From Desulfitobacterium metallireducens DSM 15288 (GTDB lineage: Bacteria > Bacillota > Desulfitobacteriia > Desulfitobacteriales > Desulfitobacteriaceae), in contig NZ_CP007032.1 of the NCBI RefSeq assembly GCF_000231405.2, forward strand, positions 248,001 through 312,000: a stretch of 64,000 nt of DNA, given 5' to 3'. The stretch's first letter is position 1, and each line of letters starts with the position of its first letter. Under the pieces are notes generated by a model. The model ran no database searches and was not told the DNA's origin. It worked only from the letters and a program-made list of their open reading frames with translations. The translations under genes were made by a program, and so were the position numbers. Shown here one piece after another: positions 5,810 through 19,392 of the stretch.

Positions 5810-6537
5810 CCACATCACTTAATATACAGGGAACAGTTATCCCTTATGAAGAACGTAAGAATTCTCGTTCAAAACGTTTGAGCCTTCGCATTGGACGAGA
5901 CAAGGTGAGGGTAACCGCACCCTGCAAAGCGACTAAACGAGAAATTCGAGAATTTGTCGAAGCTAATCAGGACTGGATACTAGCTCACTGGGTAAAAATT
6001 CAGGAGGAGTTACTCAATATTCCTAAACGGCAATATCAGGATGGAGAGGCTTTATCCGTCTTAGGTCAGAGTCTTGAACTTAAGATCATGAAAACAAATC
6101 AGAAAACGATGAGGCTGCGTTATCTTAAGGAAGAGAAAAAAATCGAGATTCGGTTACCTGAAGGGATTGCCCTAGAAAATCAAAACGAAGCAACTCGGGA
6201 AATCTTAGGTCAGTGGTTGAAGCGAAAAGCTCGTGAAGTTTTCCAGACTAAATTAGATCAAGTAAGTGCTCAAATGGGTGTAAGTTATAAGGCATTTCGG
6301 CTCAAGGAACAGAAAACACGATGGGGAAGTTGCTCCAGTAAAGGGAACATCAATTTAAATTGGCGAGTCATCCTAGCGCCAGAGCAGGTCATAGATTATC
6401 TGATCATACATGAGTTAGCTCATTTGAAGCATATGAACCACTCCCCCTCTTTTTGGGACGTTGTGGGTCAATATTGCTCAGACTATGATGTTTGCCGCCA
6501 TTGGTTAAAGGTGAATGGAGATAGGCTCACACTTTAA
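5800..6537 (+). CDS. YgjP/DUF45-type zinc metallopeptidase
   Basis: Putative metal-dependent hydrolase of the COG1451 (YgjP, SprT-like/WLM relatives) family. It carries RWGSCSSKGNI at residues 174-184 and the zinc motif HELAH (H204, E205, H208), with a further histidine in KHMNHSPSFW. The 245-residue length is normal. The start lies inside the last codons of the nitroreductase gene. The natural substrate is not established for the family. The N-terminal half is basic and likely structural. Confidence 0.88.
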   Translation: MEIATSLNIQGTVIPYEERKNSRSKRLSLRIGRDKVRVTAPCKATKREIREFVEANQDWILAHWVKIQEELLNIPKRQYQDGEALSVLGQSLELKIMKTNQKTMRLRYLKEEKKIEIRLPEGIALENQNEATREILGQWLKRKAREVFQTKLDQVSAQMGVSYKAFRLKEQKTRWGSCSSKGNINLNWRVILAPEQVIDYLIIHELAHLKHMNHSPSFWDVVGQYCSDYDVCRHWLKVNGDRLTL

Positions 6538-6543
6538 GCGCAA

Positions 6544-6807
6544 ATGAGTAACGTAAGATGGGAAAACTTGGAACAAGATAGGAAGAGGAACGTGGACCAT
6601 CAATATTCGTTGGGCGATCTTTTAAATGATATAGGTGTACCTATCACAAAAGGAGATTATGTAGAACATACCAGCAAACCGGGTGTGCCTTTGCTTGTTG
6701 TGCGGGGGCCTTACCCTTCAAAGCTGGGTAATCTCTGCCTTGATGTACGTGAGCCTAAGGCAAAAAAAGCGTCAAGGGTACAGTTAGAAAATGTGTACAG
6801 AGTTTGA
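6544..6807 (+). CDS. Small conserved-looking protein of unknown function
   Basis: I do not recognise this 87-residue protein. It is soluble and charged, has no cysteine pair or membrane helix, and has a central PGVPLLVVRGPYP segment that suggests a small beta barrel. It lies six bases after the metallopeptidase stop with no clear SD, so it is probably translated by coupling. Its 3' end runs to 19 bases before the lipase ATG. The tight packing supports a real gene in a four-gene operon, but the product is hypothetical. Confidence 0.6.
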   Translation: MSNVRWENLEQDRKRNVDHQYSLGDLLNDIGVPITKGDYVEHTSKPGVPLLVVRGPYPSKLGNLCLDVREPKAKKASRVQLENVYRV

Positions 6808-6826
6808 TCCGTTCAAAGGAGTATAT

Positions 6827-7672
6827 ATGGCAAGCGAATACTCGTATCTTGTAACGACTCAAGGGGTAAAGGTCTTTTATTGTGAGGAACATCCCGATCA
6901 AGAAAAGGGAATAGTTATTATTAGCCACGGGTATGCGGAGCATTCTGGATATTATCTGGGCTTAATGCAGTTTTTGGTAGAGCACGGCTATGGGGTCTAT
7001 GCTTTAGATCATCGTGGACATGGTCACTCCGAGGAAGAACGGGGGCATCTTGAGCAATTTGAGTTTTTCTTAGAGGATTTAGATGCTGTGGTGAACTTTA
7101 TTCACGAGAAGCATCCTATGCTTCCCCTTTATATGTTTGGTCACAGCCTGGGAGGCCTCATTGCGTTCCATTATGGAATTTTATACCCCGAGAAACTGGA
7201 GGGACAGATTTTTACGGGTGCGGCGGTTGGGAAACCCGTGGGAACTGCGATGATCCCCGATTTTTTATTCGAATTCCTCAATAAATACTTCCATCGATAT
7301 AAGATTTATCAGGTCCTTTCCCAGCGAGCGACCCGTAATCTCGAAGTTCAAAAACATTCGAAGTCGGATCCGCTGCTCCTTGAATATGCTACTGTGGGCT
7401 TTTACTATGAGTTTATCTATCGCGGAGTTAACGCGGCTAAACGGAAAGTAGAAAACTATCGGTTACCCTGCCTTTTCTTACATGGACGAGCTGATCGAAT
7501 TATTCCTTATCAGTCTTCAGCATATATTTTTGACCGGATTTCCTCAGAAGATAAAGAGCTTAAGTTTTACGATGGACTCTATCATGAGCTGATTCAAGAA
7601 CCCGAGCGAGAAATTGTTTGGAAGGATATTTTGAATTGGCTTGAGAATAGAGTATGGCGAAATATTAGTTAA
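6827..7672 (+). CDS. Alpha/beta hydrolase, monoacylglycerol-lipase-like
   Basis: Serine hydrolase probably acting on lipid or small esters. The oxyanion region is IISHGYAEHSGYY, the nucleophile motif is GHSLGG (Ser107), the acid is in LHGRADRIIP, and the histidine is in YDGLYHELIQEPE. The size (281 residues) matches Serine aminopeptidase S33/monoglyceride lipase proteins. The ATG at 6827 is chosen because AAAGGAG lies six bases upstream; an in-frame ATG at 6791 has no SD and overlaps the previous gene. No signal peptide. Last gene of the cluster, followed by a strong terminator. Confidence 0.88.
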   Translation: MASEYSYLVTTQGVKVFYCEEHPDQEKGIVIISHGYAEHSGYYLGLMQFLVEHGYGVYALDHRGHGHSEEERGHLEQFEFFLEDLDAVVNFIHEKHPMLPLYMFGHSLGGLIAFHYGILYPEKLEGQIFTGAAVGKPVGTAMIPDFLFEFLNKYFHRYKIYQVLSQRATRNLEVQKHSKSDPLLLEYATVGFYYEFIYRGVNAAKRKVENYRLPCLFLHGRADRIIPYQSSAYIFDRISSEDKELKFYDGLYHELIQEPEREIVWKDILNWLENRVWRNIS

Positions 7673-7749: not shown

Positions 7750-9885
7750 CTATTTTTGCGAGTCCTTCTTTTTCCCATTGCCTGAGTTAAACCAGGAATC
7801 GAAGGAATTCGAGTCAAGACCGAAGCGTTTGAAGAGACGATCTTTCCAATTCTGTGAGGGTGTTTTCTCGGAATTTTTATCATTTTTATTTTTGCTATTA
7901 TTCTTTTGATCTCCAAAGGAGTCAAATGGGTTGGATTGCCAAGGGTCTGTATACCCTAAGGGGACTTCAAAGTTTGTTATGGGAGCAGTCTTCAAGGCTT
8001 TAGAGAGTACTTCGCGGAAAACACTAGCTGGCTCAGTTCCTCCAGAGGTTGAGAGATAATGGTTGCGGTCGGTTTTATCATAGCCCATCCAAATGGCGGC
8101 GGTAAGTTCAGGGGTATAACCCACGAACCAGACATCTTTAGAACCCTTTGTAATTCCAGAGAATTCTTGAGTGTGGGGAAGTTCTACGGAACCTGTTTTA
8201 CCTGCAGTAGGTCGTCCTATTTCGGCATTTTTACCCGTTCCATTATCGACGACGTTTTCTAAAAGCTGGGTCATGGTATAGGCGTTTTGAGGACTGGTCA
8301 CTTGCACTGATTCCGGTTCCATTTGAGCAAAGACATAACCCTCTTCAGAGGTGATTTTAGTAATTGCATAGGCTTTATTCATCGTGCCGAGATTGGCGAA
8401 CGTTCCGTAAGCTTGAGCCATTTGTAAGGGAGAAACTCCGTCCGATATTCCACCAAGCGCAAGACTCAATGTCTTGTCTTTCTCTGTGAGAGGAAGGCCT
8501 GCCTTTTGACCAAAGGACAGGCCTGTATCCAAGCCAATTTCGTTTAAAAGCCAGACTGCAGGGATGTTCCAAGAATATTGAAGAGCTTCCTCCATGGTCA
8601 CTTCGCCCCGGTTTTGATAATCATAGTCCTGAGGGGTGTAACCATTGATGCTGAGGGGCCCGTCATAGAGTTGAGAGAAGGGCGTATACCCTTTCTCCAG
8701 GGCTGGACCGTATACGGTTAAGGGTTTAATTGCGGAACCTGGTTGCCGTTTAAGTTGAGTGGCATGGTTAAAGGAACGAAACGCGCTTTCCCCACGGTAA
8801 CCGACGAGTCCTCGTATTCCTCCAGTATGCTGATCAAGAATCGCTATCCCACTTTGGACGCTTTGATCTGATTTCCCAGAAGGAAAGTACTGGTCATTTT
8901 TATACACTGTCTCTGCTGCGAGTTGAACCTTTGGATCCATTGCAGTATAAATTTGCAACCCGCCGGTTAGAAGCTGATCTTCAGTAAAACCGTAGCGTGA
9001 GATCGCTTCCTCAATCACACAATCGACATAGGGAGCAAATTTTCCAGAGAGATTATTGAGTGATCCTTTACGGAGGGTAATCGGAGCAGAGCGTGCCCGT
9101 TGATATTCAGCGTCAGTGATATTGCCTTGGTCGTTCATTAAAGAAAGGACTAGGTTGCGACGTTCAAGGGCTTTTTCTTTATCGTTTAGTGGAGAATAGA
9201 TGCTCGGAGCCTGAGGTAGTCCTGCGAGCAGAGCTGACTCTTCCAAGTTGAGGCCTTCAACGTTTTTCCCAAAATAATACCGAGCAGCGTTTTGAATTCC
9301 CCACTGGCCTTCCCCAAAATAAATTTGATTAAGGTATTCTTCAAGGATTTGATCTTTGCTCAAGGTGAGTTCGATTTTAAGGGCATAAGCGGCTTCGGTA
9401 ATCTTTCTGCTGATCGTTTTATCCGAAGGTAAAAAGAGGTTTTTGGCTAGTTGCTGGGTAATCGTACTTCCCCCTTCGGAAAAATCACCCGTTTGTAAAT
9501 CACGGGACAAAGCGCGCATGATTGACCAAAGATCAACTCCATTGTGTTCATAAAAACGTCGATCCTCTGTATCAATGACTGCGTCACGCAGCGTTTGCGG
9601 AACTTTTTCAAGCGAAACGGGGTCAATTTTTGAGGAAGAGAGTTCAGAAACCTTATCCCCATTTTGATCATAAATATAGGTCGGTCGAGCCAGTGGACTT
9701 TGGAGTTTGCTGACATCTAAAGACAACATCCATAAAGTGAAGGAACTGGAACCGAGGATAAAAAGAAGGAGGACAATTAATGAGAACCCTTTCCAAAACT
9801 TTGGCTTTCGCCAAAACTGAGAGGAATAAATTGGATGGGTGATTCGCCTCAGAAAGGCTTTAATATCCTCTAGCAAACTTTTCAA
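7750..9885 (-). CDS. Class A penicillin-binding protein (PBP1a-type)
   Basis: Bifunctional cell-wall synthase that polymerises glycan strands and cross-links peptides. A cytoplasmic N-terminus and one membrane helix (about residues 34-55) are followed by a GT51 glycosyltransferase domain (EDRRFYEHNGVD, GGSTITQQLAKNLF, YLNQIYFGEGQWGI). The transpeptidase domain has SxxK in QPGSAIKPL, SxN in YSWNIPAV and KTG in AGKTGSVEL. The last 60 residues form an N/K/S-rich tail. The start is TTG at 9885 with AAAGGAGG seven bases upstream. It is 711 residues and transcribed alone. Confidence 0.93.
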   Translation of the reverse strand: MKSLLEDIKAFLRRITHPIYSSQFWRKPKFWKGFSLIVLLLFILGSSSFTLWMLSLDVSKLQSPLARPTYIYDQNGDKVSELSSSKIDPVSLEKVPQTLRDAVIDTEDRRFYEHNGVDLWSIMRALSRDLQTGDFSEGGSTITQQLAKNLFLPSDKTISRKITEAAYALKIELTLSKDQILEEYLNQIYFGEGQWGIQNAARYYFGKNVEGLNLEESALLAGLPQAPSIYSPLNDKEKALERRNLVLSLMNDQGNITDAEYQRARSAPITLRKGSLNNLSGKFAPYVDCVIEEAISRYGFTEDQLLTGGLQIYTAMDPKVQLAAETVYKNDQYFPSGKSDQSVQSGIAILDQHTGGIRGLVGYRGESAFRSFNHATQLKRQPGSAIKPLTVYGPALEKGYTPFSQLYDGPLSINGYTPQDYDYQNRGEVTMEEALQYSWNIPAVWLLNEIGLDTGLSFGQKAGLPLTEKDKTLSLALGGISDGVSPLQMAQAYGTFANLGTMNKAYAITKITSEEGYVFAQMEPESVQVTSPQNAYTMTQLLENVVDNGTGKNAEIGRPTAGKTGSVELPHTQEFSGITKGSKDVWFVGYTPELTAAIWMGYDKTDRNHYLSTSGGTEPASVFREVLSKALKTAPITNFEVPLGYTDPWQSNPFDSFGDQKNNSKNKNDKNSEKTPSQNWKDRLFKRFGLDSNSFDSWFNSGNGKKKDSQK

Positions 9886-9923
9886 GGGTTAACCTCCTTT
9901 GATTGATTACAGTAATTATACGG

Positions 9924-10517
9924 TTAGATATCCTGCCTTATGGGGGTGGGGACTTGATAGAGGACTGATTTTTCACCGATGAGTTGAATTCCGTGGACAG
10001 GGATGAAACCACTTAACTGAGTTTGAGAGGCCTCTATGACACTCAGGCTGAGGTGAGCGAGTGGGAGTTTTCTGCATTCTTCTATTGTGAAGAAACCGAT
10101 TTGACTCACTTCTTCGAGCTCAGGTTGTAATTCACCCGCGATGTAGCGGAGAATAAAAACCATATATAAGTCATGTTTATTCCCAGGACGGTCGCGCAAG
10201 GCAATTAGGGAAACAGGTTCTGTTTCGAGTCCCGTTTCTTCCTGAAGCTCGCGGACGATAGCTTCGGATATGCGCTCTCTTTGATCAACAAATCCTCCGG
10301 GAATCGTCCAGTTTCCTTTGCCGGGATTCTGAGCTCTTTGAACGAGGAGAACTTTATTTTCGCGCCAAACGATTCCCCCAACGCCTAAGGAGAATTCTCC
10401 CCAATGTACAAAAGAGCAATCTGGACAATACGGGTAATTCTGTTTGGAAAATTGACCTTGGATTAAGGGTTTGCCACACTGGGGGCAAAAGTTATAGGTG
10501 ATGATTGGATGTGACAT
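9924..10517 (-). CDS. Nudix hydrolase with N-terminal zinc ribbon
   Basis: Hydrolyses a nucleoside diphosphate-linked substrate; the zinc ribbon plus Nudix layout resembles NADH pyrophosphatase (NudC) relatives. Zinc ligands are C11, C14, C31 and C34. The Nudix box is complete from G75 to L97 (G-x5-E-x7-REL-x-EE-x-GL). At 197 residues it lacks the extra N-terminal domain of classical NudC, so the substrate is uncertain. A reasonable SD (GGAAGGGACC) precedes the ATG. Downstream of the MFS gene on the same strand with a short gap, possibly co-transcribed. Confidence 0.87.
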   Translation of the reverse strand: MSHPIITYNFCPQCGKPLIQGQFSKQNYPYCPDCSFVHWGEFSLGVGGIVWRENKVLLVQRAQNPGKGNWTIPGGFVDQRERISEAIVRELQEETGLETEPVSLIALRDRPGNKHDLYMVFILRYIAGELQPELEEVSQIGFFTIEECRKLPLAHLSLSVIEASQTQLSGFIPVHGIQLIGEKSVLYQVPTPIRQDI

Positions 10518-10548
10518 AGTGGTCCCTTCCTTTTTATACTCAATAAAA

Positions 10549-11796
10549 TTAAGTCTCGGGGTTAAGAGGGATTAGATGCTGGAAGTTTCGCACAGCACGT
10601 TGATAAAGGAAAAAAGCGAAAATGGATATTCCGATAAAACTTAATGCGAGAATCCAAATTATTTGTCCGCCCCAATAGTCAAAAACTAAGCCTCCAAATA
10701 AGGGGCCAAGTACCCGTCCTCCTGAGGCAGCCCCAGCAGCAATCCCTTGATACGTTGCGGCTTTTCCTTTCGGTGCTATCTGAGCAGCGGCAGCAGGGAC
10801 TGCAGGAAAGATGAGCATTTCACCTAGAGTTAAAACTAGCATGGCGAGAAGGTACGAATAATAAGGAAATTGAGCAAGTAAGATGACAAACGAGATTCCG
10901 ATTAAAAGACACGAAAGGTAGAATTGACGAGTAAAGCTGTGAGCCCAATGTCGGATGATCCACTGGATAAACGGTTGTAAGGTGACGATAAAGATCCCAT
11001 TCAGGGTCCAGAGGATACTATATTGAGGTAAGGAAAAACCAAGTTGAGTCATGATAACGGGTAAGACAGTGGGAAGCTGGATATAGGCAGCCCAGACCAT
11101 TAGGATTCCACCGCTGAGGGAGAGAAGAACGGGAAAACTAAGATCATGGCTTAAAGTTTGACGGGATCGCCTTGAAGTCGCATTTGTATTTACGCCATTT
11201 TTTGCAGGAACTCCCACGAGGATGAAGATAAGATAAATAGAAAAAGCAAGTGCATTAAAGAGGAATATTAATCGGAAAGAGTAATTAGCGACAACCCCGC
11301 CTAGAGCGGTGCCGACTGCAACTCCCGCATTGTTGAATACATAGAGAAGATTAAAGCCGCGCCGTCCCCCTTCAGGCCAAAGCTGAGAGATCAGGGCATT
11401 GAGCGGGACAAAGATAAAAGCAATGGAAAGCCCGAAGCCAAGTAGCCCGGGTGCATAAACCTCCCAAACAGGGAAGCGTGCAATGAGTCCTAACGATATG
11501 ATGGCTCCAATAAAGCCAAAGTGCATCATTCGCATTGCTCCAAAGCGGTCAGCTAGAAATCCGCTGACAAACTGGCCGAGAAGTGTAGTCAAAGCTTGAG
11601 CAGATATGAGCATGCCTGCTTCTGTAAGCGTTCGACCGAGAACATTATACATAAAGAGACTATTTAAAGGCCACATCAATGAGTTTCCAGTGGACTGGAT
11701 AAAACCGCCTAGAACGAGGATAAGGACAGGAGGGGGAATTTCTGATTTTTGCAAGTATGTAGCTAGTCTATTTATTTTCATGATCAACATTCCCAT
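10549..11796 (-). CDS. Major facilitator superfamily transporter
   Basis: A 415-residue polytopic membrane protein with about twelve hydrophobic segments in two halves. The MFS loop motif GFLADRFGAMRMM lies after the second helix, and a central hydrophilic loop (NGVNTNATSRRSRQTLSHDL) sits between halves. It resembles drug or metabolite efflux members of COG0477, but substrate cannot be assigned. Three in-frame ATGs lie at the start (11796, 11790, 11781) and none has a strong SD, so the exact start is uncertain. Confidence 0.85.
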   Translation of the reverse strand: MGMLIMKINRLATYLQKSEIPPPVLILVLGGFIQSTGNSLMWPLNSLFMYNVLGRTLTEAGMLISAQALTTLLGQFVSGFLADRFGAMRMMHFGFIGAIISLGLIARFPVWEVYAPGLLGFGLSIAFIFVPLNALISQLWPEGGRRGFNLLYVFNNAGVAVGTALGGVVANYSFRLIFLFNALAFSIYLIFILVGVPAKNGVNTNATSRRSRQTLSHDLSFPVLLSLSGGILMVWAAYIQLPTVLPVIMTQLGFSLPQYSILWTLNGIFIVTLQPFIQWIIRHWAHSFTRQFYLSCLLIGISFVILLAQFPYYSYLLAMLVLTLGEMLIFPAVPAAAAQIAPKGKAATYQGIAAGAASGGRVLGPLFGGLVFDYWGGQIIWILALSFIGISIFAFFLYQRAVRNFQHLIPLNPET

Positions 11797-12664: not shown

Positions 12665-13852
12665 ATGCGTTCACTTCGTCAACAGATATTGTTTTCATTG
12701 ATAACTTCGTTATTGCTTCTGGCGACTAGCTTTATTCTTATTTTTGGCTCTCATATGCAAGAAAGGGCGATTTCGGCAGCCATTATCAAGGCCCAATCGG
12801 ATTTGGCCACCTGTACGGAAATAATTGATCTCCAATATCCCGGAGATTGGAAAGTAGAGAACGGGTCTTTATTTAAGGGAAAAAAAGAGATTGCCTTTAA
12901 TAATAATCTCGTGGATTACTTATCAACGTTAACAGGTGATACGGTGACTGTCTTTCTTAATGATACACGCGTTGCGACTACAGTGAGAAGCTCGGATGGG
13001 GAAAGAGCACTTGGAACAAAAGTTTCGGATGTTGTTGCTCAAAAAGTCCTTAAAAATGGTGAAGTCTTCTTGGGAGAAGCTAATGTAGTTGGTGAAACCT
13101 ATCAAACAGCTTATGAACCGATTCGAGATGCTTATGGGAACATCGTAGGGATGTTTTATGTGGGGATCTCACGGAGTTATACGAAAGATCTTATCGTTAA
13201 TTCTCTTTGGCAGACTGCTGCCATTGGTGGAGGAATAACTCTTCTTGTCGGAATACTGGCTTGGCTTTTTGTCGAAAAAGTGATTATTCGTCCTCTTCGA
13301 AACATTACCCTTGGGACACGGGATTTGGCGACAGGTCATGTGACAGAAAAAGTGGATATCTCTGGTCCTAAAGAGATTGGAGAGTTGGCTTCGGCATTTA
13401 ATCAGATGATCGAACGATTGGAAAATGTCACTAAAGGATTAGAGAATCAAACGGAAATTCCTGAGAAGGGACAAGAAATCGGGATAGAGAATCAGGTAGA
13501 GGTGACAGAGACTGGTCATACTTCAGAGATTAGTCCTGAAGAGACGTGTTTTGAACAAGCCGTACTAATTGAAGCACAGAATACGTTTATAGAACATGAA
13601 AGATACTTAAGTGAGCATAAATTACCCAAAGGTTTGAATAAAGAAACACTGAAACAGATTACTCATTTCTTCGTCGATCAACAGGGTTTTGTTTCAGCAG
13701 AGGAGGTTGCTGAAGGGGTAAAATTAACCCGAGTAACGGTAAGACGGTATCTCGAGTTTTTGGAAGAGAGAGGATTATTGACCTCAAAATTAAAATATGG
13801 GACGGTCGGTCGCCCGGTTCGTATTTGGTCGACTAAAGAAAACCTGGATTAA
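12665..13852 (+). CDS. Membrane-anchored one-component regulator: Cache-like sensor, HAMP, winged helix
   Basis: A 395-residue protein with membrane helices at about 8-28 and 183-203. The extracellular part (29-180) resembles a single-Cache domain (VTVFLNDTRVATTV, GEVFLGEANVVGETYQTAYE, YGNIVGMFYVG). A HAMP domain (204-257, RPLRNITLGTRDLA ... ELASAFNQMIERL) follows, then an acidic linker with an imperfect repeat (ENQTEIPEKGQ / ENQVEVTETGH). Residues 322-392 form a winged helix like the C-terminus of CitB/DcuR response regulators (VSAEEVAEGVKLTRVTVRRY, LKYGTVGRPVRIW). There is no kinase, methyl-accepting or GGDEF output. It likely binds DNA from the membrane and may control the formate dehydrogenase operon next to it. 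Confidence 0.85.
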   Translation: MRSLRQQILFSLITSLLLLATSFILIFGSHMQERAISAAIIKAQSDLATCTEIIDLQYPGDWKVENGSLFKGKKEIAFNNNLVDYLSTLTGDTVTVFLNDTRVATTVRSSDGERALGTKVSDVVAQKVLKNGEVFLGEANVVGETYQTAYEPIRDAYGNIVGMFYVGISRSYTKDLIVNSLWQTAAIGGGITLLVGILAWLFVEKVIIRPLRNITLGTRDLATGHVTEKVDISGPKEIGELASAFNQMIERLENVTKGLENQTEIPEKGQEIGIENQVEVTETGHTSEISPEETCFEQAVLIEAQNTFIEHERYLSEHKLPKGLNKETLKQITHFFVDQQGFVSAEEVAEGVKLTRVTVRRYLEFLEERGLLTSKLKYGTVGRPVRIWSTKENLD

Positions 13853-13877: not shown

Positions 13878-13902
13878 AAAGGCTTGTGAACACAAGCCTT
13901 TT
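13878..13902 (+). terminator. Terminator after the membrane regulator
   Basis: AAAGGCTTGTG pairs with CACAAGCCTTT and is followed by TTCTTAATTT. It separates the regulator transcript from the formate dehydrogenase operon. Confidence 0.85.
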
Positions 13903-13957
13903 CTTAATTTACATAACCTCTTTTTTGCTTTCATTATATTCATAATCGTGACAGCAC

Positions 13958-13985
13958 TTGAGACTAACGGTAAGATAAATATACA
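13958..13985 (+). promoter_or_regulatory. Candidate promoter of the formate dehydrogenase operon
   Basis: TTGAGA, 16 bases and TATACA form a moderate sigma-A-like promoter about 75 bases before the fdnG start. A short inverted repeat AAGAT-N6-ATCTT at 14018-14033 and near-direct repeats TTTTCAG/AAATTCAG just upstream of it lie between promoter and gene and could bind a regulator. All of this is weak pattern evidence. Confidence 0.4.
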
Positions 13986-14059
13986 TTCTACGTTTTCAGA
14001 AAATTCAGGTTTTGTGAAAGATTAAACTATCTTGAGAAAAAGAGGAGGAAGGATGAAAG

Positions 14060-17000
14060 ATGGAGGTATCCCGTCGTAATTTCCTGAAGCTTTCGGGAGC
14101 GTCACTGGCTGCGTTAGTGACAGGGCTTGGTTTTGAACCAGATGTTGCTCGGGCACAAGGGTATGACCTAAAAATTGAGGGTAGCCAAAAGATCCCAAGT
14201 ATTTGTCACTTTTGCTCTGGAGGCTGTGGTCTGCTTCTTTACGTTAAGGAAGGTAAGCTTATTCATTTGGAAGGAGACCCAGATCATCCAACCAATGGAG
14301 GGACCTTATGTCCTAAAGCGGCCAGTTTGCGTAGTGTTGCTTATTCATCAGATCGGGTGACGAAGCCTCGACGTAGGGCACCTGGTTCCGATTACTGGGA
14401 GGATATTTCTTGGGAGGAAGCTCTGGATCGAGTTGCTAAGAAAACAAAAGAGGTCAGGGATTCTTCTTGGAAAGCCACTGATCCAATAAAGAATGCTAAG
14501 ACTGGAGAGATGGAAGAGTTCCCAGTGAATCGTGTAGAGGGAATTGCTTTCCTCGGTTCTGCTGAAGTCGATAATGAAGAGTCCTATATTTTCTCCAAGT
14601 TTTGTCGAGTTTTGGGTACACCCTATAATGAACATCAGGCCCGTATATGACACGCTCCCACGGTGGCAAGTTTGTCACCATCATTTGGCCGCGGTGCAAT
14701 GACCAACTCATGGTCAGATTTACAAAATTCTCAAGTGTTCCTTATTGCAGGTTCGAACTGTGCTGAAAACCATCCGATCGCGATGCGCTGGATTAATCGG
14801 GCCAAAGAACATGGGGCGAAAATCATCGTCGTTGACCCTCGATTCACACGTACAGCCTCACAAGCGGATGTCTTTGCTCAGATTCGTCCAGGAACAGATA
14901 TTGCCTATTTAGGAGCAATCATACGTTATATTATTGAAAACAAGCTATACGATGAAGAGTATCTGAAGAACAATACGAATGCTCTTTTAAAATTAAATAA
15001 AGAGTATAAATTTGAAGAAGGGCTCTTTTCAGGATTCGATTCCAAAACAAATAAATATGGGGTCGATAGCTGGAGTTATCAACTTGGAGCAGATAACACG
15101 CCTTTAAAGGCGACGTCCTTCGAGGATCCTGACTGTGTTTTGAGTAAGCTCAAGGAACATTACTCTCGTTATACCTTTGAAACCGCTGAGGAAATAACGG
15201 GAATTCCGGCAACGAAGATTCAAGAGATCGCCGAGACTTTCTGTGCTGCCCGCCCGGGGAGTATTCTTTACGCTTTAGGAATGACTCAACACACAACTGC
15301 GGTTCAAGGAATTCGTGCGTATGCTGTTATTCAGTTGCTATTAGGCAATATTGGTAAAGCTGGCGGCGGAATTAATGCTCTCCGTGGAGAACCCAATGTC
15401 CAAGGCTCAACCGATATGGCGAACCTCTTTAACAGTCTCCCAGGTTATCTCCCCCATCCTATTAGTACGGATAAAACGCTTCAGAATTATCTGGTACGGA
15501 ATGGTTCCGTCCAAGAAAAACCAATCGTTGCTCTGCTTAAAGCATGGTATGGTGAAAATGCCACAAAAGAAAATGATTACGATTTTAGTTATTTGCCCAA
15601 AAATAACCCAGCCACAAATGCAACAATGGTTAAAGTCTTTGAACTTATGGAGAAAGGTCAATTTAAGCTTCTCTTTAATTTCGGTTCGAACTCCTTAGTA
15701 TCCATTGCCAATCGCCAACTCGTCCGTTCCGCTTTAAAAAAATTAGATATGCTTGTGGTTTCCGACCTCTATGAAATCGAAACGGCTCAGTTCTGGCGGG
15801 AACCCGGAGTTAAGCCTGAGGAAATCCAAACTGAGGTGATCATGTTCCCGGCAGCTTTTGTTTATGAGAAAGCAGGTTCTCTGACCAATTCTTCACGTTG
15901 GATTCAATGGAAGGATGCGGCGATTAAACCTCTAGGCGAGGCTAAACCTGATCTTGATATTATCGATGCGCTTTTTAAGCGGGTTCGAAAGCTGTATGAA
16001 GGAAGTACAGAAGAGAAGGATGCCCCGATTTTACATGCACGTTGGGATTATGGAGAAGAACCGAGTGCGTTGAAGGTTCTTCAGGAGATCAATGGTTATG
16101 ATGAGACGACCGGAAAGGTTTTACCGACGTTGGCTAGTTATCTTAATGCTCCTGTGGGTACTGTGTCTACAGGATGCTGGATTTATGCCGGTGTCACAGG
16201 AAATGGGAATTTAGCGGCTCGCCGAAAAAATGATGATCCATCTGGTTTGGGGATTTTTAATGGGTGGAGCTATGCTTGGCCAGGCAATATTCGGATTTTA
16301 TATAACAGAGCCTCTTGTGATGCGCAAGGTCAACCGCTTGATCCAAAGCGGAAGCTTGTCTGGTGGGATGCTGCCAATCAGGTTTGGGCCGGGAATGATG
16401 GAGCCGATGTTGCGGATAAGACAAAAGGACCGGATACTCCCCAAGGAAGGCAGAGCTTTCGGATGAATCCGGAAGGGGTTGGTCGCCTCTTTGCTGCCAA
16501 ATATACGAGTGGAATGATCGCGACTCTGCCGGTTCCAGGGCAGCCTGTAATCGGTATTCGTCCAGCAGCACTTTGTGTTGATGGACCGATTCCTGAGTTC
16601 TATGAACCGACTGAAAGTCCAACGGTTAACCTTTTACATCCGAATGTATCGGCGAGTCCTACGGCAATTGTACCCTCAGCTTTCCCAGAAATTCAGAAAC
16701 GCGGTAAGCCTGAAGATTATCCTTATGTATTAACGACCTATGGTGTTGTAGAGCATTTCTGTGCAGGGGGAATTACTCGTAATATTCCTTGGCTGAATGA
16801 ATTGATGCCTGAGCCATTTGCTGAGATCAGTAAAAATTTAGCCCAAAAGATCGGTGCCAAAGAGGGAGATAGGGTTGAAGTTTCCTCAGCGCGGGGCAAA
16901 GTGACGGTGCGATGCCTAGTGACGGATCGACTTCAGACCTATAAGACAAATGGCAAAGATACAGAAACCATTGGTATGCCTTGGAGTTGGGGATTTGCCA

Positions 17001-17107
17001 GCTTAAGCCCTGGGCCGAGTACGAATGAATTAACGATTGCCTCACTTGACCCCGGGGCAGGAACTCCTGAGACCAAAGTATGTCTGGTCAATATAAGGAG
17101 GGCTTAA
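14060..17107 (+). CDS. fdnG: Formate dehydrogenase catalytic subunit, selenocysteine-containing
   Basis: Oxidises formate at a W/Mo-bis-pyranopterin centre on the outer face of the membrane. The frame is open across a TGA at 14648-14650 that encodes Sec197, giving 1015 residues, the normal FdnG length. A Tat signal (SRRNFLKLSG, cleavage near ARA at 30-32) leads. The [4Fe-4S] ligands are C49, C52, C56 and C84. The region after Sec reads HAPTVASLSPSFGRGAMTN, as in FdnG/FdoG. SD GAGGAGG precedes the ATG; an out-of-frame ATG at 14053 stops quickly. Read without recoding it would be wrongly split into two genes. First gene of the operon. Confidence 0.96.
14648..14679 (+). promoter_or_regulatory. 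Sec UGA codon and bacterial SECIS hairpin
   Basis: After the UGA and exactly 11 bases comes a 6-pair stem, GGTGGC (14662-14667) with GTCACC (14674-14679), closing the hexaloop AAGTTT. The 11-base spacing, short stem and loop carrying GU match the minimal SelB-binding SECIS of E. coli fdhF/fdnG. The host must therefore have selA, selB, selC and selD elsewhere. Confidence 0.9.
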
Positions 17108-17108
17108 G

Positions 17109-17921
17109 ATGTCACGAAAAATGGTTTTTGTCGATACGTCCAAATGCACGGGTTGTAAAGCGTGTACAGTGGCTTGTAAGGAATGGAATGAACTCCCTGC
17201 TGAGAAGACCCAACTTGTCACGAGTTATCAGACGATGAAAGATTTCACTCCTAAGACCTGGACGTTTATCACATTTACGGAAAAGTATGAAAGCCAAAAG
17301 ATGAATTGGTATATGCGCAAAGCTCAATGCTTCCATTGTGCTGAGCCAGCCTGCCTGAAATCTTGTTCGTCCAAGGCGATTAGTAAGACGGATTCTGGGT
17401 ATGTTGTGATTAACCAGGATCTGTGCATCGGGTGCGGGTACTGCGTAGAGAACTGCCCTTTTGGTGTCCCTCAACTGGATAAGACAGCAAAAAAAGCACA
17501 TAAATGTACGGGCTGTATTGATCGGGTTGAAAATGGTTTAATCCCTTCCTGTGTGGCCACTTGCCAGCCGGGTACGCTTAAATTCGGGGAGCGGGAGACG
17601 CTGATGGCGGAAGCTAAGAAAAGACTAGCAGAAGTTCAGAAGACCCATCCTAAGGCGCGAATCTATGGAGAAACAGAGATGGGGGGGACGACTTTCGTCT
17701 ATCTTCTTCTTAATGATCCAGAGGTCTATGGTTTGCCGGTTAATCCACAGACGCCGCTTTCCCTTACCCTATGGAAAGACGTGGTTCGCCCCGTTGGGGG
17801 AATGGCAGTTGGAGGGGCAGCCGCGGCAGTTGCGGTCGGAGTTTTAGGACACTTTCTTCGCGGATCTTATCGTGATCAACCACCCGAAGACCAAAACACG
17901 CAGGAAGGGGGCGAGCGCTAA
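17109..17921 (+). CDS. fdnH: Formate dehydrogenase iron-sulfur subunit
   Basis: Electron-transfer subunit that carries electrons from FdnG to the membrane cytochrome. Four ferredoxin-type cysteine clusters are visible: CTGCKACTVAC (residues 13-23), CFHCAEPACLKSC, CIGCGYCVENC and CTGCIDRVENGLIPSC with CVATC. A hydrophobic C-terminal segment (about 225-247, GGAAAAVAVGVLGHFL) anchors it in the membrane, as in E. coli FdnH. It follows fdnG by one base and overlaps fdnI by one base (TAATG). It has no signal of its own and is expected to be exported with FdnG through Tat. Confidence 0.95.
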   Translation: MSRKMVFVDTSKCTGCKACTVACKEWNELPAEKTQLVTSYQTMKDFTPKTWTFITFTEKYESQKMNWYMRKAQCFHCAEPACLKSCSSKAISKTDSGYVVINQDLCIGCGYCVENCPFGVPQLDKTAKKAHKCTGCIDRVENGLIPSCVATCQPGTLKFGERETLMAEAKKRLAEVQKTHPKARIYGETEMGGTTFVYLLLNDPEVYGLPVNPQTPLSLTLWKDVVRPVGGMAVGGAAAAVAVGVLGHFLRGSYRDQPPEDQNTQEGGER

Positions 17922-18616
17922 TGTCAATTCAAACACAGACGAAAGGACAATTTGGACAGCCAGCGGGGACAGATAAGGTTTTACGGTTTACCTTGGGTGA
18001 ACGCGTAAGCCATTGGATCCATGCTGTATCATTCTTTCTCCTTCTCTTTACTGGCTTAGGAATCTTATCGCTCACCATTCGACCTGCGCTTGCGGTAATT
18101 GGCGGAGTTCAAGTTGCTCGGATCCTTCATCGCACCGTGGCGGTGTTGTTTGTGGTCGGGGTGGGTTCCATGTTTTTCATCGGCAATCCCAAATATCATT
18201 GGGAATGGCTAAGAATGGTTTTTCATTTTACAAAAGCAGACTGGCAACATGTCCGTGTTTTTCCGAAGGAGTTCTTTGGAGGACATGGAAATTATCCGGC
18301 CCAGGACAAATACAATGGTGGAGAGAAGATCAATTCATTATTTACGGTTTTTGGCTCGATCTTTATCACTCTGAGCGGTGTTGTAATGTGGTTCCCTGCT
18401 GTTTTTCCACCAGCGCTCGTTCGGTGGGCTTACCCTGTTCATGATTTATCCATGTTCATGATGACGACGGCTGTGATTGGGCATATGTATCTCGGACTTT
18501 TGCATCCCGATTCACGGGTCTCTTTATCGGGTATGCTGAATGGGTATGTGCCTTCGAAATTCGCTAAGGCCCATCATGCTGCTTGGTATGAGCGGGTGAA
18601 GAAGGGGCAAAATTGA
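17921..18616 (+). CDS. fdnI: Formate dehydrogenase cytochrome b subunit
   Basis: Membrane di-haem cytochrome b556-type subunit that passes electrons to menaquinone. The 231 residues carry about four helices. Likely haem-ligand histidines are in RVSHWIHAVSFF (H31, H34), ARILHRTVAVL and the fourth-helix region VIGHMYLGLLHPDSR. Translation is coupled to fdnH through an ATGA-like overlap. The gene makes the enzyme a respiratory complex rather than a soluble or hydrogenlyase-type formate dehydrogenase. Confidence 0.93.
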   Translation: MSIQTQTKGQFGQPAGTDKVLRFTLGERVSHWIHAVSFFLLLFTGLGILSLTIRPALAVIGGVQVARILHRTVAVLFVVGVGSMFFIGNPKYHWEWLRMVFHFTKADWQHVRVFPKEFFGGHGNYPAQDKYNGGEKINSLFTVFGSIFITLSGVVMWFPAVFPPALVRWAYPVHDLSMFMMTTAVIGHMYLGLLHPDSRVSLSGMLNGYVPSKFAKAHHAAWYERVKKGQN

Positions 18617-18639: not shown

Positions 18640-19392
18640 GTGGGGGAGCTAAAGGGGTCTAATGCAACAGTAGATAAAGCTATGGAAATCGATGCATTTT
18701 ATAAAGTCTATCAGAAGCTGCAAAACGTGATTTTTCAATGGCAAGAGGAGCGGGGGCAGTATTGGGCTCAAAGCTTAGTTCCTGATAAGAATTATCCTTA
18801 TTTTAGCTTATCCAGATTACCTGAGGAGCCTGTCCTGGAACTGGTGAAACGTTTACTTGAAGCGAGTGAGCGGTTATGCCCTTTGGAGGAACTTCATTCT
18901 TCCTGGAACCACTATCGTCAAGAGCAAAAGCTTGAAAGTCAAGAGCTTTTCAGCCATTTTACCCTCGCTGTTTCGGGCGTGATTAGATTGGCTCGCCAAA
19001 GTTTACCGGAGAATCTACGTCAAAAGGCGGGAACTGAGGGTGGACTGGTGTGTCCTATCTGCGGGCAAGCTGCAGGTCTGTCTGTGCTTGTTCCTCCTAT
19101 CGGAAAACGGGTTTTGCATTGCACGCGTTGTGATCATGAATGGCCGGGTAAACGAGTAGGCTGTATTCACTGTGGGAGTGAAGAAGCTTTAGATCAAACC
19201 TATCTAAAAAATGAGGATTTTCCTGGAATTGAGATTGTTGTTTGCCAAGCGTGCGGTGGCGATTTCAAGGAAGTAGATCTGCGAGAGCGGAGGGTTGAGG
19301 ACTGGGGTTGGGAGGATATTCGAACCTTACCCTTAAATTATGCTGCAGAGAAGTGGCTTCACGAACAAGCCCAGAAGAAGATTTTAATTTAA
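18640..19392 (+). CDS. fdhE: Formate dehydrogenase accessory protein FdhE
   Basis: Cytoplasmic rubredoxin-like factor needed for maturation of Tat-exported formate dehydrogenases. The N-terminal 130 residues are helical. The C-terminal half carries four cysteine pairs: CPICG, CTRCDHEW, CIHCG and CQACGGDFKEVD, the FdhE iron/zinc motif set. The start is GTG at 18640, with GAAAGGAG upstream. It ends the operon before a strong terminator. Its presence confirms an exported enzyme. Confidence 0.92.
   Translation: MGELKGSNATVDKAMEIDAFYKVYQKLQNVIFQWQEERGQYWAQSLVPDKNYPYFSLSRLPEEPVLELVKRLLEASERLCPLEELHSSWNHYRQEQKLESQELFSHFTLAVSGVIRLARQSLPENLRQKAGTEGGLVCPICGQAAGLSVLVPPIGKRVLHCTRCDHEWPGKRVGCIHCGSEEALDQTYLKNEDFPGIEIVVCQACGGDFKEVDLRERRVEDWGWEDIRTLPLNYAAEKWLHEQAQKKILI

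Follow-up and report, generated by a model that had tools for sequence, protein, structure and literature searches.

The gene at 12665-13852 on the forward strand of the window (the whole stretch of 64,000 nucleotides that was analysed) is predicted, with a probability of about 0.75, to encode a membrane-tethered one-component transcriptional activator, which would respond to formate and act locally on the fdnGHI-fdhE operon that follows it. The gene and the parts of its product are listed below by window position.

12665-13852 (+): regulator gene, ATG start, 395 amino acids, arranged as TM1 - sCache_3_3 - TM2 - HAMP - linker - HTH_64
12683-12751 (+): first membrane helix, about residues 7-29, within a hydropathy peak at about residues 6-31
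12890-13195 (+): extracytoplasmic sCache_3_3 sensor domain, residues 76-177, from Pfam, with 8py1/8py0 as nearest structures
12968-13018 (+): predicted formate-contact triad R102/T105/T118, with the same spacing as PacF R142/T145/T158
13208-13294 (+): second membrane helix, about residues 182-210, within a hydropathy peak at about residues 181-211
13280-13423 (+): HAMP domain, residues 206-253, from Pfam
13622-13828 (+): CitB/DpiA-type HTH, the LPKGL lead-in plus HTH_64, residues 320-388, from Pfam and NCBIfam

Pfam profiles were used to assign the domains of the regulator. The sensor matched sCache_3_3 over residues 76-177 (E 5.3e-36; 123.6 bits against a cut-off of 28.8), HAMP was found at residues 206-253 (2.6e-14, above the curated cut-off) and the C-terminal end matched HTH_64, the 'DpiA-like HTH', over residues 333-388 (3.3e-8; 34 bits against a cut-off of 27). 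The C-terminal parts of the NCBIfam models for DcuR and DpiA aligned with residues 316-388 (1.9e-12) and 311-389 (2.1e-10), respectively, while no kinase, receiver (Response_reg) or MCP signalling domain (MCPsignal) was matched by Pfam within the 395 amino acids. These matches, together with the hydropathy profile, bore out the original prediction of two membrane helices with a Cache-like domain and HAMP, a CitB/DcuR-type output and no phosphotransfer. By its domains, the protein appears to be a membrane-bound one-component regulator, in which sensor and DNA-binding domain share one membrane protein with neither kinase nor receiver.

The regulator resembles two known modules joined together, an MCP-type sensor half and a CitB-type HTH. 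The closest solved structures to its sensor were the chemoreceptor ligand-binding domains 8py1 and 8py0, which we take to be formate complexes, and the same genome encodes an MCP-type protein related to the sensor half (open frame of 572 amino acids, 36% identity). Within that genome the nearest match to the HTH comes from a response regulator of the CitB type: residues 320-385, a stretch that takes in the LPKGL..TLK lead-in, are 46% identical (BLASTP E 3e-15). Structure prediction, which had been proposed as a check on the winged helix, gave a divided answer: the HTH helices do appear in an AlphaFold2 model built without an alignment, but the model is of low confidence (pLDDT 41 for the whole regulator and 58 for residues 305-395), and Foldseek matches were weak and mostly to winged-helix proteins, none of them with E < 0.05. 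Since this support is poor, the winged-helix assignment rests on the profile matches and not on fold prediction.

Homologues were gathered by genome search, as a related-locus search of genome contigs gave HAMP-level matches only. Of 74 genomes belonging to the same order as the source, 42 contained a match to the regulator at E <= 1e-20, which in several was to MCP-sized proteins only. The order-level set whose neighbourhoods were compared comprised 62 full members, drawn from 61 loci of which the window is one. All 62 are arranged alike, so the architecture does not stem from misassembly or a shifted frame. Members from other classes of the phylum show this domain arrangement too; additional queries for more distant ones covered classes represented by few genomes. 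In a sample of 398 genomes from the phylum, most HTH_64 proteins occupied open frames of ~220-300 amino acids, the size of a response regulator, and those in frames of ~356-440 amino acids were nearly all members that the full-length search had located too.

Conservation along the order-level members ends at E250 and returns at L320, leaving a long linker between HAMP and HTH without near-invariant positions. Such a linker would also suit a protein that does not regulate from the membrane but whose cytoplasmic part is set free by proteolysis, or one whose HTH acts as a dimerisation or adaptor module. However, HAMP scored above the Pfam cut-off both here and in several of the members scanned, which suggests intact transmembrane signalling, residues T355, R356, T358 and R360 of the HTH are invariant across the order-level members, and a shared motif is present at each order-level target, as described below; we therefore consider both forms of this explanation very unlikely.

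The most likely ligand of the regulator is extracellular formate. R102, T105 and T118 match exactly the Arg/Thr/Thr spacing (+3 and +16) of PacF from Pectobacterium atrosepticum, where changes at R142, T145 and T158 affect formate binding, as quoted in PMC12501870. The R/T/T triad is invariant in 62/62 order-level members and was also found in 8py0, 8py1 and the MCP of the source genome. Published work describes formate binding by domains of the sCache_3_3 and allied Cache types (PMC12415202, PMC12501870), one of them the sCache_3_3 domain of a gut MCP, which carries the reported residues (PMC12415202), and R115 of Atu0526 is required for the response to formate (PMC8698456). As the R115A change in Atu0526 increased formate affinity yet abolished the response (PMC8698456), the pocket Arg may serve signalling rather than binding. 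The earlier suggestion of formate as the ligand is backed by the invariant triad and by the published binding of formate to sCache_3_3/Cache relatives, as well as by genome context in many lineages. The triad alone marks the sensor family, since other sCache_3_3 proteins carry it, including the MCP of the source genome. This MCP-type protein (L002, C1:1075957-1076730), with its related sensor and the same triad, is probably a formate chemoreceptor.

The operon downstream of the regulator has the following composition.

14060-17107 (+): fdnG, with a Tat-type signal and a selenocysteine TGA at 14648-14650
17109-17921 (+): fdnH, 4Fe-4S subunit
17921-18616 (+): fdnI, cytochrome b subunit
18640-19392 (+): fdhE-like formate dehydrogenase formation protein, assigned from position and sequence reading, with no Pfam match at E <= 1e-10

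The in-frame TGA at 14648-14650 is read through as selenocysteine (HQARI-U-HAPTVA); mechanical ORF calling splits fdnG at this codon. The fdhE-like gene is the conserved fifth gene of the regulator-fdn unit. With fdnG starting at 14060 (+), the regulator does lie directly upstream of a formate dehydrogenase operon and in the same direction, as was originally described.

This arrangement was found throughout the order, where 59/62 members are directly upstream of, and on the same strand as, genes for formate dehydrogenase, HydABC or FNT. In 26/62 the next same-strand gene downstream is fdnG; in 17/62 it is the NuoE-like gene that opens a HydABC [FeFe]-hydrogenase operon, and in 16/62 it encodes an FNT formate/nitrite channel. 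Contig ends cut off two of the other three members, and the last stands ahead of hydrogenase-maturation genes, identified by their sequence as HypB- and HypF-like. One genome carries two tandem members (L073:6753-10779); an FNT channel gene comes after the first and the HydABC operon after the second. Outside the class of the source genome, the regulator is followed by the formate dehydrogenase (fdn) operon at L106, L107, L109, L110 and L111 (the L109 and L110 regulators being identical) and by an FNT gene at L112 and L116, and it stands tail-to-tail with a [FeFe]-hydrogenase/ferredoxin/NrfD unit at L108:7960-13243 and L115:3421-8685. These last two are the only linked cases that are not co-directional. 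The L113 member has the triad and no adjoining formate or H2 gene. In a tree of the regulators, rooted at its midpoint only, the formate dehydrogenase-linked state appears on several branches, and the paralogues linked to hydrogenase or channel genes nest among these.

Co-occurrence with fdnGHI, which had been proposed for checking, is thus seen in the 26/62 order-level members preceding fdnG and recurs in other classes. While this supports the fdn target, fdnGHI alone proved too narrow: because homologues also adjoin hydrogenase and formate-channel genes, the family is one of formate/H2 regulators and not only of fdnGHI regulators. The source genome lacks FNT genes and gave one [FeFe]-hydrogenase match, in keeping with its single regulator. 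As formate is no substrate of the cytoplasmic [FeFe] hydrogenase whose operon follows 17/62 members, those members could also point to another small molecule as the ligand, such as a short carboxylate, bicarbonate or a redox- or H2-linked metabolite, the formate genes being merely downstream targets. This is unlikely in view of the linkage to FNT channel and formate dehydrogenase genes, the invariance of the formate triad and the measured binding of formate by sCache_3_3/Cache_3 relatives.

Between the regulator and fdnG, three elements were recognised.

13878-13901 (+): intrinsic terminator between the regulator and the fdn promoter, a 10-bp stem followed by TCTTAATTTA
13903-13946 (+): AT-rich repeats forming the predicted operator, CTTAATTTACATAA at 13903-13916 and TTTCATTATATTCATAAT at 13929-13946
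13948-13976 (+): sigma-70-type promoter, with -35 GTGACA at 13948-13953, 17 bp, and -10 TAAGAT at 13971-13976

With the terminator at 13878-13901 placed between them, the regulator and its fdn target appear to be separately transcribed. The region 13903-14059, in which an operator had been predicted, contains conserved repeats and the promoter. All 59 regulator-to-target gaps have one design, consisting of AT-rich repeats of the type TTTATTyACAwAA / TTCATAA, which end ~4 bases before a -35 GACA, then ~17 bp, and a -10 of TAAACT or a variant. An operator matrix was trained on two of the three promoter groups and applied to the group left out, with 358 other intergenic regions as background. In this analysis 17/17 HYD, 16/16 FOC and 23/26 FDN promoters scored above the 99th percentile of the background, one region of which scored high. 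When the full matrix was run over the retrieved loci, 68 matches fell in regulator-to-target gaps and four elsewhere: L124 and L126, which are themselves targets that had been missing from the list, plus two weak sites at 8.2 and 2.3 bits. Using a matrix trained without the window, the best operator site in the window was at 13950 (39.3 bits), and the next best scored -5.4. The simplified consensus has one exact match in the source genome, upstream of fdnG; no further operator was found there with 0-1 mismatch, and matches with 2-3 mismatches were at the level of the reversed-pattern control. Sites upstream of the regulators themselves, which would indicate autoregulation, were not clearly operator-like (best -2.4, median -25.5).

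In 59/59 promoters the repeats are upstream of the -35 and not over the -10/+1, which is the usual place for an activator, and the relatives CitB, DpiA and DcuR are activators; these two points form the whole basis on which activation is preferred to repression. The same protein could instead repress the same target and be released by formate, and the adjacency of a regulator to an apparently separately transcribed target also fits local repressors. The position of the repeats and the nature of the CitB relatives, however, make a repressor decidedly unlikely.

From the domains, the conserved triad, the promoter repeats and the genomic linkage, all of which were read from sequence, we infer for an activator the binding of formate, coupling through HAMP, binding to DNA and activation rather than repression. 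Extracellular formate would bind to the sCache_3_3 domain via R102, T105 and T118, and the resulting change would travel along the second membrane helix and, via HAMP, reach the CitB-type HTH. As a dimer or higher oligomer, the HTH would occupy the AT-rich repeats at 13903-13946, directly upstream of the -35 (13948), from where the bound regulator would help RNA polymerase to start transcription of fdnGHI-fdhE. The Tat-exported FdnG should then oxidise the same extracytoplasmic formate. The position of the regulator next to its target may fit a membrane-tethered factor that has to find its DNA near the membrane, and a single protein seems to do what otherwise takes a signalling chain of two.

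A divergent clade of nine members differs in the sensor pocket, with Cys (8) or Ser (1) instead of Arg at position 102. Its members are located as follows.

L114:5916-7040; L117:7748-8875; L118:2546-3670 and 6104-7249: Cys/Ser-pocket members
L120:5416-6462; L121:7252-8322; L139:3714-4898; L140:7349-8326 and 9630-10637: Cys/Ser-pocket members

These proteins have a further Cys ~10 residues past position 102 and mostly lack T118. Linkage to formate genes was seen in 0/9; the neighbours, where readable, are MauE/DoxX, a UGSC selenoprotein split at TGA, DsbD_TM and thioredoxin-like genes. The promoters in other classes, those of the Cys-pocket clade included, have AT-rich repeats adjoining a TTGAC-like element, as judged by eye and unscored. 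As judged from these genes, pocket and targets changed together, and since the Cys-pocket members form a single clade, this co-change represents one evolutionary event and not nine; for the same reason, a Fisher test of triad against linkage is not read as a probability. The members of this clade are possibly thiol-redox or metal sensors derived from a formate sensor. Somewhat short of an even chance, we would suggest tentatively that a formate switch was here turned into a thiol-redox or metal switch, and that the family provides a device for repeated use, made of one protein, in which an extracytoplasmic Cache/HAMP sensor directly drives a C-terminal CitB-type HTH and which follows operator rules of its own.

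Formate and H2 are main electron carriers between anaerobes, and FhlA, the best-known formate-dependent activator, works inside the cell. If true, a membrane regulator of formate dehydrogenase, formate-channel and hydrogenase genes that reads extracellular formate would reveal how these anaerobes adjust to formate exchange. As ligand, ligand residues, operator and promoter are all predicted, activation by a HAMP-bearing membrane-tethered factor becomes directly testable, and the regulator could serve as a compact formate biosensor.

Three established identities were rejected for the protein: that of a response regulator, as its 395 amino acids contain no receiver domain (Response_reg), that of a CadC/ToxR-type protein, as the HTH is C-terminal and there are two membrane helices with HAMP, and that of a methyl-accepting chemotaxis protein, as MCPsignal was not matched. 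It appears to belong to a known kind, the membrane-bound one-component regulators. The open-access literature, which we covered incompletely, yielded neither an earlier characterisation of it nor a described formate-sensing membrane transcription factor. The combination of this sensor with this effector, as originally proposed, is present here but is not unprecedented, a 2016 tally counting a transcription-factor output in 14/276 sCache_3_3 proteins, apparently without assigning a function (PMC4822843). PacF-type and other sCache_3_3 formate chemoreceptors share with the regulator the extracytoplasmic Cache domain with R/T/T at identical spacing, the membrane helices and HAMP, but their output is a chemotaxis signalling domain and that of the regulator a DNA-binding domain. 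The CitB/DpiA/DcuR response regulators have the same C-terminal HTH_64 with its LPKGL..TLK lead-in; in contrast to these receiver-containing proteins, the regulator has neither receiver nor phosphorylation, and its HTH is fused behind its own membrane sensor. CadC and ToxR are likewise membrane-tethered transcription factors with an extracytoplasmic sensor. Their HTH, however, is at the N terminus, with one membrane helix and without HAMP or Cache, whereas that of the regulator is C-terminal behind two helices and HAMP. Finally, like FhlA of E. coli, the proposed regulator would place formate dehydrogenase and hydrogenase genes under the control of formate; while FhlA is a cytoplasmic sigma-54 enhancer-binding protein that senses inside the cell, the regulator would detect formate on the outside and act at a sigma-70-type promoter.
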